NCBI GenBank assembly: GCA_021785915.1
Contig: JAJYEF010000003.1
Coordinates: forward strand, 1 to 38,262
DNA length: 38,262 nucleotides
Source: a bacterium
Lineage (GTDB): Bacteria > Patescibacteriota > Microgenomatia > Levybacterales > UBA12049
Reading direction: 5' to 3'
The position numbers and the translations under genes were made by a program. Below the pieces are notes generated by a model. That model did not search any database. It was not told the origin of the DNA and saw nothing but the letters and a program-made list of their open reading frames with translations. Of the stretch, positions 31,504 to 35,900 are shown piece by piece; position 1 is the stretch's first letter; each line of letters opens with the position of its first letter.

Positions 31504-31713
31504 TTATAGACCAAATCTCCAAGCTTCGTGAGCCGGCCCTTCTGTAAGATTTAGTCCTTCGTAACGAGGGTGTTCGGAGCCAAGATGGTTTTGCTGTTCT
31601 CCAGTGCTTTGTGACTCGTCTTCTTTTTTAGACGATGAAGTCATAGCGCTTAACGCGCGAAGAGCATGTTCAACCTTTGCTCCCTGGTTTACACCAGAAA
31701 GTTTTTCTCTCAT
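31504..31713 (-). CDS. small uncharacterised protein (unit A, behind attenuator)
   Basis: AAAAGGAGGTGATTAAATG start; ORF track. Confidence 0.65.
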   Translation of the reverse strand: MREKLSGVNQGAKVEHALRALSAMTSSSKKEDESQSTGEQQNHLGSEHPRYEGLNLTEGPAHEAWRFGL

Positions 31714-31740: not shown

Positions 31741-31764
31741 AAAAATCTCCCGCTAAAGGGGAGA
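31741..31764 (-). terminator. attenuator terminator A
   Basis: minus strand TCTCCC-CTTTAGC-GGGAGA-TTTTT, between leader peptide A and ORF 31504..31713. Confidence 0.75.
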
Positions 31765-31784
31765 ATTATATATGTCTCCCACAA

Positions 31785-31841
31785 TCAAATTCCCTTAATA
31801 AGGGTAATTTTGTTGATTTGGAAGACTTCTAAGTTATCCAT
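31785..31841 (-). CDS. putative leader peptide A: MDNLEVFQINKITLIKGI
   Basis: 18-codon ORF with AGGA upstream; stop codon sits in the 3' arm of the upstream hairpin. Confidence 0.5.
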   Translation of the reverse strand: MDNLEVFQINKITLIKGI

Positions 31842-31854
31842 AATGTATTTTCCT

Positions 31855-31931
31855 TGGTGGATCCGAGAGGATTCGAACCTCTGACCTTTGCAATGTCAAT
31901 GCAACGCTCTAACCAACTGAGCTACGAATCC
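31855..31931 (-). tRNA. tRNA-Val(GAC), CCA encoded
   Basis: GGATTCG acceptor paired with CGGATCC; anticodon arm TTGCA-TTGACAT-TGCAA; T arm AGAGG-TTCGAAT-CCTCT. Confidence 0.95.
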
Positions 31932-31933
31932 TA

Positions 31934-31960
31934 ATACCTGTCTGAATCTAAGACAGGTAT
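31934..31960. repeat. perfect 10-bp inverted repeat (loop 7) just 5' of tRNA-Val(GAC)
   Basis: ATACCTGTCT-GAATCTA-AGACAGGTAT. Confidence 0.85.
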
Positions 31961-31994
31961 AATTTTATCAGAATAAATTCCTCAATACAATTTT

Positions 31995-32222
31995 CTAAAG
32001 ACTGTATTGTCGTCTCTCAAAAATAATTGATACTTTCTCTGCCTCTTCAGGTGGAGGGACAAATAATGTATCTTTTCCCCCGTTGACTGTAATAGGGACA
32101 ACTTTTATCTCTATTCGCTGGCCGTTATAAGCTTTTGCGTCAATCTTCGTATCGGCGTGAACTCCACTTCTAAAGAGTCCGGCTTTTTCAAGCAAGGACC
32201 AGCCGCTACTTTTTTCTTTCAT
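31995..32222 (-). CDS. small uncharacterised protein (unit B, third gene)
   Basis: ORF track; tandem with 32228..32461. Confidence 0.6.
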   Translation of the reverse strand: MKEKSSGWSLLEKAGLFRSGVHADTKIDAKAYNGQRIEIKVVPITVNGGKDTLFVPPPEEAEKVSIIFERRQYSL

Positions 32223-32227
32223 AATGT

Positions 32228-32461
32228 TTATGAATTCTTTTGACCTTCATTAAATACTTCAATAGGTTGACTTTGTCCTGTAAATTTTTCAGCAGATGGA
32301 TTTAAATATCCTGATTGAAAAGCACGTAAAGCAGATTCGACTTGTGCTTGATCCGGTTCAACTCCTATTCTACTCGCTTGAAAGAAATCTTCTGAAGTCG
32401 GATACTCTCCTTTGTTTGGTACTTTTCCTCTTCTCCCTACTTCTACACTATAATAGGCCAT
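32228..32461 (-). CDS. small uncharacterised protein (unit B, second gene)
   Basis: AAAAGGAGGTGAAAAATATATG start. Confidence 0.65.
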   Translation of the reverse strand: MAYYSVEVGRRGKVPNKGEYPTSEDFFQASRIGVEPDQAQVESALRAFQSGYLNPSAEKFTGQSQPIEVFNEGQKNS

Positions 32462-32468
32462 ATATTTT

Positions 32469-32699
32469 TCACCTCCTTTTATTTAATTCTCCATACCATA
32501 ATTCTCGTGTTCTTTCGGCATCTTTTTGGCAATTGATACATCTGCAAATTTGAGCCCTTTTTTCTGCTGTAGCAATTTCCCGATTGGCTCTGGAGTTGTA
32601 GATTGTTAAAGCTTCTCTAATTGCAAGAGGAACCACTTCGTCTACAATTGGATCGGATAATTGCGAATCGGTCAGTTGTTTTTCTATTATTTCTTTCAT
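32469..32699 (-). CDS. small uncharacterised protein with CRCINC cysteine motif (unit B, first gene)
   Basis: GGAGTTATCTATG start at 32699; the TTG at 32711 in the ORF track is within the U-tract/SD. Confidence 0.65.
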   Translation of the reverse strand: MKEIIEKQLTDSQLSDPIVDEVVPLAIREALTIYNSRANREIATAEKRAQICRCINCQKDAERTRELWYGELNKRR

Positions 32700-32709
32700 A
32701 GATAACTCC

Positions 32710-32737
32710 AAAAAAAATCTCCCTTGTTTGGGAGATT
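32710..32737 (-). terminator. attenuator terminator B
   Basis: minus strand AATCTCCC-AAACAA-GGGAGATT followed by T-run, directly upstream of the SD. Confidence 0.8.
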
Positions 32738-32777
32738 GTTCTTTTGTTTAAAATTTTGTTTTATTACATCTTTTCTC

Positions 32778-32819
32778 CCAAACAATTACGCCTCCATAAG
32801 GAGGTTAATAATCGTTTGG
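32778..32819 (-). promoter_or_regulatory. leader hairpin 1:2 of unit B
   Basis: CCAAACGATTA..CCTCC-TTAT-GGAGG..TAATTGTTTGG, 11 bp outer stem (one G-U) plus 5 bp inner stem. Confidence 0.7.
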
Positions 32820-32839
32820 AAAAGAAAAGATCTTTTCAT
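32786..32839 (-). CDS. putative leader peptide B: MKRSFLFQTIINLLMEA
   Basis: 17-codon ORF starting about 5 nt from predicted TSS; stop at start of hairpin 3' arm. Confidence 0.5.
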   Translation of the reverse strand: MKRSFLFQTIINLLMEA

Positions 32840-32850
32840 ACTATAAAAAA

Positions 32851-32879
32851 ATTCTACAAAAGGTATCATTCCCTGTCAA
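32851..32879 (-). promoter_or_regulatory. sigma70-type promoter of unit B
   Basis: TTGACA-N17-TAGAAT. Confidence 0.75.
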
Positions 32880-32887
32880 GAGGCAAA

Positions 32888-33415
32888 TTACCTTCTTTTT
32901 CTCGAATTCCACGATTTTGGAGCCTCATATTGTCCCTCGACCCTGAATTGATTCTCGATTTTATCGGCATCTTTTTTTCTTCCGCGCGCATCCTGGATAA
33001 TCGCAGGAACTCCCTCAAAAATGCCCCTGTGGCAGTATAGCCTTAAGCTGTTGTCATCATAAGGGTTGCCTATTATAAATATATGTATATCGGGTTTTCC
33101 CTCTGTTCTTGAAGCTAAAACCGCGCTGCTTCCGGTTATTGCACCGTCTAAGGAAAACTGGGTAGTTAGTTGTTGCCATACGCTGTCTATTTTTTCACTT
33201 TCGTTTTTTGATAATCTACCTGCTATCTCCGTAAACGAAGACCTGCTGCCAAGAGTTGAGGCAACGAATAGCGGTCTACCATGATCGGGAAACGGAGCAA
33301 AGGTTACGGGATGTCTTTCTCCTTTTCTTATGCTTGCGCACGGAACGATAGTTGCATCCGCACTTATCGTAACGTTAGGATGCCTAAATCTTTCTTCTAA
33401 ATATTTTTCTGTCAT
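32888..33415 (-). CDS. uncharacterised protein (unit C)
   Basis: ATG at 33415 with GGAGGTGATAAAT upstream. Confidence 0.65.
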   Translation of the reverse strand: MTEKYLEERFRHPNVTISADATIVPCASIRKGERHPVTFAPFPDHGRPLFVASTLGSRSSFTEIAGRLSKNESEKIDSVWQQLTTQFSLDGAITGSSAVLASRTEGKPDIHIFIIGNPYDDNSLRLYCHRGIFEGVPAIIQDARGRKKDADKIENQFRVEGQYEAPKSWNSRKRR

Positions 33416-33435
33416 ATTTATCACCTCCAGTCCAT

Positions 33436-33458
33436 AAAAAAACCTCCCGCTTGGGAGG
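33436..33458 (-). terminator. attenuator terminator C
   Basis: minus strand CCTCCC-AAGC-GGGAGG-TTTTTTT. Confidence 0.8.
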
Positions 33459-33482
33459 CTTTAAGGCGCATTTAATTAAAAG

Positions 33483-33545
33483 CTACGCCAAGAAACCTCC
33501 CCTTAAGGAGATCTTGATAAGCTTCTTAATAAAAATTAATTTCAT
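33483..33545 (-). CDS. putative leader peptide C: MKLIFIKKLIKISLRGGFLA
   Basis: 20-codon ORF downstream of TTGACA (33575-33580); ends TAG next to segment 2. Confidence 0.5.
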   Translation of the reverse strand: MKLIFIKKLIKISLRGGFLA

Positions 33546-33588
33546 AAAATTATTTTTTCAAAACTTATAATTTATGTCAACAACCAAA

Positions 33589-34266
33589 TTATCCGACTTG
33601 GGTTGCAACATTTCGTTCGCCCGACAAAGTAAAGCTCGTCCCGTAAGCTTTCGCAGATGGCCAATAGCCCTTTTTATGAGTTTTTGCAGAAATTACCGTA
33701 AGCCAGCTCGTTGAATCTTCGATTTTTATTCGCGCACTTTGAAGCGTTACCAAAAGCCATTCGAAAAAGTTTAGGTGGTACTTGCCGGCGTTAGGGATGA
33801 TGTTTTCGATAGTTACGTCCTTTACGATCACCTCAAGCTCTGTCGAGCTCTTCGCAAGTTTTGCAATTTCCACTCTTACTTCTTCGATTTTTTGGCTTAG
33901 CTCCCTTTGTTCCTGCGAGGAAGCGCGTTCGGTGGCATTAATGATTTCGGAAAAATAGTCTATTGCGGGTTCTATTTCGGCCATTCTTTCCGATTTGCCG
34001 AGCACAATTTCCTCGCCTTCCTGCATCTCAATGAAATCATTTTGACCGACAGGACCTTCGTTGGAAGTGTGTTTTATGTCCTCTTTTTTAGCTTGCTTGC
34101 TTGCGCCCAAGAGTTGGTTCCAGAGGGCATTGACTTCAAGCTGGGCTTCGTCTTGCAATGCTTTCCTGGTCGCATCCAATGCAACAGATCCCGTATCCCT
34201 AAGTGCCTCCACAGGATTTCTGTCAAAATTTTTTATCCTATTTTTCTGGGTTTTTGTTTTATCCAT
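33589..34266 (-). CDS. uncharacterised protein, possibly DUF5660-like
   Basis: ORF directly downstream of tig with GGAGGC upstream of ATG; family guess from memory only. Confidence 0.5.
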   Translation of the reverse strand: MDKTKTQKNRIKNFDRNPVEALRDTGSVALDATRKALQDEAQLEVNALWNQLLGASKQAKKEDIKHTSNEGPVGQNDFIEMQEGEEIVLGKSERMAEIEPAIDYFSEIINATERASSQEQRELSQKIEEVRVEIAKLAKSSTELEVIVKDVTIENIIPNAGKYHLNFFEWLLVTLQSARIKIEDSTSWLTVISAKTHKKGYWPSAKAYGTSFTLSGERNVATQVG

Positions 34267-35258: not shown

Positions 35259-35816
35259 TTATAATGTGAGGGAAAGTGAATCCTTAGGGTCGTTTAAAGC
35301 GAATTTCTGGATGTCATTAAGGTAATAAAGTACGTGCGAAGCCCATACGGGAGAAGAAGCGTACATAGACCCTATTTGGTATATGTTTTGACCTCCCCAT
35401 TTGTCCATGTATCTTTGTCTTAATCCTGCCGAAACGGTTTGTATGCCCTCTTTCCAGGAACTAAATCTTATTACATTGTCGCCGTATACCCCCCATCCCC
35501 AACCATTATAAGAAGAGGGTGGAATTGACTTACCGAATGTGGATTCAACTCCGGCAATTGCGGCAACCAGTCTCCAGTCCAGATTGTACTCATCGGCATA
35601 ATAGATAAAATCCTGCGCATTTTTTGCCAACGGAGAATGCTGTTTCAACAGATATTTCTTTAGTATTTTTACACGGTAATCAGAACTTTCCGTAACCGAT
35701 TGGAAAGTTTTAATGTCCGCGGAGGACGCTGAAGCCTTTTCCTGTGAATACGCTTTTTGAGGAATAATCGTTAGTGCCGCAATAAAAAATATTGCAAGCA
35801 AAATTTTATTTCCCAT
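35259..35816 (-). CDS. secreted lysozyme/glucosaminidase-like protein
   Basis: signal peptide; DEYNLDWRLVAAIAGVESTFGKSIPPSSYNGWGWGVYG lysozyme-like motif. Confidence 0.75.
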   Translation of the reverse strand: MGNKILLAIFFIAALTIIPQKAYSQEKASASSADIKTFQSVTESSDYRVKILKKYLLKQHSPLAKNAQDFIYYADEYNLDWRLVAAIAGVESTFGKSIPPSSYNGWGWGVYGDNVIRFSSWKEGIQTVSAGLRQRYMDKWGGQNIYQIGSMYASSPVWASHVLYYLNDIQKFALNDPKDSLSLTL

Positions 35817-35855: not shown

Positions 35856-35900
35856 AAAAAAAATCCTAACGTATGTATTTGGAAAGACATACCTTAGGAT
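35856..35900 (-). terminator. terminator-like hairpin 1 in the same leader
   Basis: ATCCTAAGGTATGT-N10-ACATACGTTAGGAT then T8. Confidence 0.75.

Follow-up and report, generated by a model that had tools for sequence, protein, structure and literature searches.

The locus and its three leader units

The window analysed here, a single contig of 38,262 nucleotides, belongs to a genome of the Ca. Levybacteria family (Microgenomates, Patescibacteria; 984 kb in 97 contigs) and contains, in order, tRNA-Leu, tig, a DUF5660 gene (33589..34266, minus strand), a leader unit with its gene (U1), a second unit with three small genes (U2), tRNA-Val(GAC) (31855..31931, minus strand), a third unit with its gene (U3), a UPF0047 gene and an HD-like gene. 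Where relatives have a readable contig, they retain the tRNA-Leu/DUF5660 border and mostly also the tRNA-Val, while the genes between them vary; the DUF5660 gene forms the conserved left border of a slot, and the tRNA-Val, conserved in several relatives, the right border of a variable island. All three units lie on the minus strand where the original prediction had placed them with a common layout, and a script blind to the coordinates, which required a T-tract terminator whose 5' arm pairs with an upstream segment, together with a short ORF starting at ATG and a gene after it, re-detected only U1, U2 and U3 in the window. The TTGACA that the script assigned to U3 sits within the tRNA and was discounted. 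Module density in the source genome was gauged by a pattern search of the whole genome and by 387 kb of further stretches, none of which contained the strict module.

U1 starts with a TTGACA-17-AAAAAT promoter found by consensus scan (33552..33580, minus strand), followed by a 20-codon leader ORF (33483..33545, minus strand; MKLIFIKKLIKISLRGGFLA plus stop), whose ATG is a few bases from the expected transcription start. Segment 2 (33493..33502, minus strand; GGGGAGGTTT) has two alternative partners, a CTCC in the leader (1:2) and segment 3, and segments 3:4 form an intrinsic terminator (33440..33461, minus strand; AAGCCTCCCAAGCGGGAGGTTT plus T tract). A strong SD precedes the downstream gene (32888..33415, minus strand; 175 aa), which has homologs in three relatives (G041, at 48%, G038 and G001), so that the family occurs in 4/100 relatives searched, the source genome counted. 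It resides in the post-DUF5660 island in three genomes, and G041 has it at another site, following a leader rich in Lys. An AlphaFold2 model of the protein (pLDDT 65.5, pTM 0.63) found no PDB fold at E<=0.001.

The U2 promoter (TTGACA-17-TAGAAT; 32851..32879, minus strand) is conserved in one relative (G002), as is, near-identically, its 17-codon leader ORF (32786..32839, minus strand; MKRSFLFQTIINLLMEA plus stop); in U2, too, the promoter puts the transcription start only a few bases from the leader ATG. Segment 2 (TTGTTTGGGAGA; 32774..32785, minus strand) and the terminator of segments 3:4 (AATCTCCCAAACAAGGGAGATT plus T8; 32716..32737, minus strand) are followed by genes for proteins of 76 aa (32469..32699), 77 aa (32228..32461) and 75 aa (31995..32222), all on the minus strand; the first has a homolog in 0/100 relatives and the other two are without Pfam or NCBIfam match. 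U3 has an 18-codon leader ORF (31785..31841, minus strand; MDNLEVFQINKITLIKGI plus stop), segment 2 (GGGAGA; 31775..31780, minus strand), a terminator of segments 3:4 (TCTCCCCTTTAGCGGGAGA plus T5; 31746..31764, minus strand) and a gene for 69 aa (31504..31713, minus strand), again with a homolog in 0/100 relatives. The target genes of all three units lack matches in Pfam, NCBIfam, PHROGs and PADLOC, and a phage or defence origin was set aside, as both the PHROG and PADLOC searches were blank.

Some details of the predicted layout need amendment. A strong SD is present in U1 and U3, with GGAG only in U2, and the expectation of one small ORF per unit holds for U1 and U3 but not for U2 with its three. 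The leader stop codon, thought to fall at or in segment 2, is just 5' of that segment in U2 and U3, and in U1 it lies inside the extended 2:3 pairing. The absence of any single-amino-acid run in the three leaders was confirmed on reading their sequences; each is Ile/Leu-rich, an enrichment that is weak in single AT-rich leaders.

U1-U3 are genuine leader-ORF/terminator modules, U1 and U2 being strong instances and U3 a weaker one. Their leaders fold with z-scores of -3.1, -7.5 and -2.6, respectively, and the computed 2:3 antiterminator duplexes reach -22.0, -13.3 and -11.4 kcal/mol. In each, the 2:3 and 3:4 helices are mutually exclusive, as in a ribosome-mediated amino-acid attenuator, and in U1 and U2 a translatable leader ORF lies between a TTGACA promoter and the terminator. 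U3 has its leader ORF but no promoter of its own and starts 14 nt past tRNA-Val(GAC), and is therefore probably read from the tRNA promoter and co-transcribed with that tRNA. It is the weakest unit: it is absent from five relatives with a readable region downstream of tRNA-Val, the likeness of its leader to other leaders is marginal (3/200 shuffles), and it may in part be a tRNA-Val terminator. The units are not recent duplicates of one another, their mutual local scores (15-19) falling under the shuffle mean (~23), and in a curated RNA family search for riboswitches or T-boxes only tRNAs reached the gathering score.

Elsewhere in the window (35863-35900, minus strand), a long hairpin (ATCCTAAGGTATGT..ATACATACGTTAGGAT) and a T-run come after a promoter-like TTGACA, just ahead of a lytic-transglycosylase-like gene (35259-35816). 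This hairpin is nearly identical at three loci of other genomes (L023, L025, L026), and Rfam has no family matching it at gathering score.

A probable attenuator family across Levybacteria

U1-U3 belong to a large set of predicted Levybacteria attenuators. A double-pairing pattern (GGGAGN{10,40}CTCCCN{3,12}GGGAGNTTTT) has 57 matches in 34/73 family genomes against 0 for the reversed pattern used as control, and its matches in the source genome are exactly three, namely U1-U3. Across 379 other genomes of the phylum, a few of them of the same family, only 12 matched (control 2), which makes the arm sequence chiefly a feature of the family. In one genome of the same order, orphan genes follow an Ile/Leu/Val leader and also an aromatic one.

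Where the downstream genes could be named through Pfam and NCBIfam, the leader codons tend to fit the amino acid concerned. Thus, leuA leaders contain Leu runs, ilvA and cimA leaders Ile, and ilvB and ilvE leaders Ile/Leu/Val; DAHP synthase (aroF) is preceded by MSSAQAWFYFYFTSLTGR or MNKFAAFYFYFTSLTGR, with a WFYFYF codon run, pheS by FFFF, metE by MMEMM, hisG by HH, serB-serA by SSSS, citramalate synthase by IIEII and gatC by NTQNQ. Over 29 leaders before known amino-acid genes, with the hisG leader hand-picked from two overlapping candidates, the cognate fraction is 0.363 versus 0.147 when permuted, a value reached in 0/100,000 permutations, showing that modules of this family read amino acids. 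The arms differ between genomes (CTCCC, CCGCC, CCCCG), and the predicted 2:3 pairing is retained through these changes: an upstream region with its own arm averages -9.7 kcal/mol as against -7.6 kcal/mol with a swapped one (0/20,000). The anatomy, this co-change of the arms and the cognate codons of homologous modules together uphold the proposed mechanism, in which ribosome position selects between antiterminator and terminator. Folding with a ribosome footprint reproduced the switch in most leaders tested; static folding is not decisive, because one leuA leader (G004) terminates at every position.

Several members of this set have configurations of their own. Orphan genes at four loci (L063, L110, L075, L208) are found behind aromatic leaders (VYFFFTS, FWFYF, FYFTYF), and two of them have a DHTGARHVFPVYDA motif in common; attenuation of orphans is thus not confined to Ile/Leu/Val. 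Orphan proteins with an NGVDFxDPKSA motif occur in both G002 and G016. In G023 (L119, 265-442) a SAM-I/IV riboswitch (41.4 bits against a gathering score of 41.1) is directly 5' of the MMEMM leader attenuator, placing two methionine sensors in series before a MetE-type methionine synthase. PIG-L deacetylases, one of them BshB-like, occur behind Cys-run leaders (VCCCAP, LCCGN; L073 and L121 in G107 and G006), which suggests cysteine-controlled thiol synthesis, and tandem attenuators with Thr runs (TTTT and TTTTT) precede a single SerB-like phosphatase in G027 (L122). An aromatic amino acid lyase and an M20 peptidase follow leaders with AHH motifs (L087 and L127 in G047 and G036), and histidine control of a lyase would be unusual. 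Depletion of Ile/Leu/Val in the proteins behind Ile/Leu/Val leaders was considered and rejected as not specific (0.194, versus 0.202 where orphans follow other leaders, p=0.18), with both orphan groups lying below the enzymes.

The slot after the DUF5660 gene is a preferred site of these modules, with one within 420 nt in 28/48 genomes versus 8/600 random windows (1.3%) of source-genome sequence, or 26/48 versus 0/600 under stricter criteria that in the random windows also demand an SD. Ile/Leu/Val make up 39% of the slot leaders, a share that is 24% for short ORFs taken at random and 12% for the leaders of other amino acids; the shares of U1, U2 and U3 themselves (42%, 31% and 41%) are reached by 8-29% of random short ORFs. 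The gene directly after the slot module is ilvB in two genomes (G003, G057), ilvA in three (G032, G042, G107) and cimA in one (G053), and elsewhere mostly a Pfam-less gene (19/20 of the attenuated orphan proteins tested).

What the units may sense

Used as a DNA query, the U2 leader recovers the same leader (MKRSFLFQIITNLLMEA plus stop) in G002 ahead of an unrelated gene, differing by a reciprocal pair of Ile/Thr exchanges and a single synonymous change, and, in other family genomes, leuA leaders (MNKRILLLNLVLLLKE and MKTNQNILLTIDLLLTEI), an ilvA leader (VKKFSSIQIISIISIMES) and ilvE leaders (MSLIQELVALQVALLIVVEK and MQNYLLSLFGIVLVEAC), each ending in a stop. Footprint folding shifts U2 toward antitermination at codons 6-12, reverting from codon 15, and the Ile/Leu codons of this zone are L6, I10 and I11. 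For U3 the shift occurs at codons 10-12, with I12 in the zone, and for U1 the antiterminator has a probability of at least 0.96 with the A site at codons 2-11, and the terminator one of at least 0.95 once the A site is at codon 12 or beyond, up to the stop; the U1 zone includes L3, I4, I6, L9 and I10, and also K7, K8 and K11.

Taking these comparative data from metagenome-assembled genomes together, we infer that U1-U3 are probably ribosome-mediated attenuators that sense branched-chain amino acids (BCAA), uncoupled from biosynthesis and set on orphan genes. They would operate by transcription attenuation of the trp/his/leu/ilv type. RNA polymerase would start a few bases ahead of the 17-20-codon leader ORF, or, for U3, at the tRNA-Val promoter. 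With ample Ile- and Leu-tRNA the ribosome would reach the stop codon and mask segment 2, leaving 3:4 to terminate; a stall at an Ile or Leu codon before the last third of the leader would instead mask segment 1, allow 2:3 to form and permit readthrough into the small genes.

Strong KARI/IlvC matches are present in 11/73 family genomes and lacking in the source genome, whose LeuA-like protein scores far under every isopropylmalate-synthase cut-off, leaving no recognisable LeuA. The attenuators thus apparently lack the usual role in BCAA synthesis, and the organism seems unable to make leucine or isoleucine, as judged by the searches for IlvC and LeuA. With no BCAA synthesis genes found in these searches, the attenuators may have been kept or re-used to turn on orphan proteins during BCAA shortage. 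That the target genes have no known BCAA link speaks against this reading, whereas relatives' attenuated genes do fit the cognate amino acid (ilvA, ilvB, ilvE, leuA, cimA, aroF, pheS).

The original prediction instead suggested translation inhibition or general amino-acid shortage as a possible signal. In such a rival reading the leaders would answer to any ribosome stalling, as antibiotic-responsive attenuators do. The lack of single-residue runs in U1-U3, the mix of Ile, Leu and Lys in U1, the opening of U1 in the folding model by any stall in codons 2-11 and the unassigned roles of the gene products all agree with this. However, homologous leaders of the family carry run-like cognate codons fitting their genes, and the slot is biased to Ile/Leu/Val across genera; with U2 homologous to leuA, ilvA and ilvE leaders and U1 in an Ile/Leu/Val slot, BCAA shortage is the likelier signal, and we regard unspecific stalling as unlikely. 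It is also partly contained in the BCAA reading, since amino-acid attenuators respond to inhibitors too. A narrower proposal makes lysine the amino acid sensed by U1 and by the related leaders of that gene family, with Ile/Leu read by U2 and U3 only. The leaders before the U1-gene homologs in G041 (KKSKK) and G001 (NNKKN) are indeed Lys-rich rather than Ile/Leu-rich, and have an AAG-AAG in common with U1, where it falls in the antitermination zone. By inspection, however, the AAGA pairs with UCUU of segment 2 and may be structural, and the DNA-closest leader to U1 is that of G105 (MKLNLFRLIKLITSQGGGFSV) in the same slot. This proposal as a whole appears improbable, though U1 may read Lys as well.

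That the hairpins are plain terminators of the upstream genes, with fortuitous short ORFs, is best matched by U3, promoterless behind tRNA-Val and not conserved. Against this, in U1 and U2 a promoter of their own separates the upstream gene from the hairpin and a third pairing segment is present, the U2 leader is kept in G002 despite the different downstream gene, and slot occupancy is far over chance; this explanation is very unlikely. Returning to the predicted BCAA-sensing attenuators, they suggest that attenuators can outlast, or uncouple from, the biosynthetic pathway that they once served. More tentatively, and with rather less than even confidence, Levybacteria might sense starvation through exchangeable, amino-acid-specific attenuators placed before lineage-specific orphan proteins, by which auxotrophic, probably host-dependent cells would turn on dedicated genes, for host interaction or scavenging, when one of the partner's amino acids runs out. 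How genes are regulated in Patescibacteria, which for the most part cannot be grown in culture, is little known; for dozens of attenuated genes, about half without a recognised domain, the leaders predict which residue is the signal, and so offer a condition under which an orphan's function can be sought.

Comparison with known systems

We found no paper describing this regulon, which the original prediction had held to be possibly new, but the kind of attenuation is classical. Open-access full text likewise yielded nothing on attenuation by leader peptides in Patescibacteria, which is weak evidence of absence, subscription journals being mostly uncovered. Leader-peptide attenuators of E. coli and Salmonella control leu, ilvGMEDA, ilvBN, thr, his, trp and pheA (PMC1183508). 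Like them, the present units have a short leader ORF with putative control codons, three alternative pairings (1:2, 2:3 and 3:4) and a terminator before the gene, and in Levybacteria relatives the control codons fit the gene's amino acid; in contrast to them, U1-U3 have very short leaders (17-20 codons) that begin only a few bases from the predicted transcription start, occur in Patescibacteria and have orphan targets. Against Rfam, U1 (35.4 bits) and U2 (28.3) align in full length and on the right strand with Phe_leader (RF01859), below its gathering score of 55, and U3 (25.5 bits) does so with His_leader (RF00514), below its gathering score of 49, a resemblance of architecture and not of homology.

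The ilv attenuator of S. aureus is Leu-rich (PMC5794164), and in the BCAA attenuation of Listeria isoleucine shortage is treated as a host signal (PMC5864092). These share a BCAA-sensing leader with the predicted function of our units, but govern BCAA synthesis genes in place of unassigned small proteins. TopAI-YjhQ, with its antibiotic-sensing leader attenuator under uORF control (PMC12121999), is comparable in its uORF dependence and its small non-biosynthetic genes; that type, however, senses ribosomes stalled by several causes, whereas the Levybacteria family has leaders matched to amino acids.
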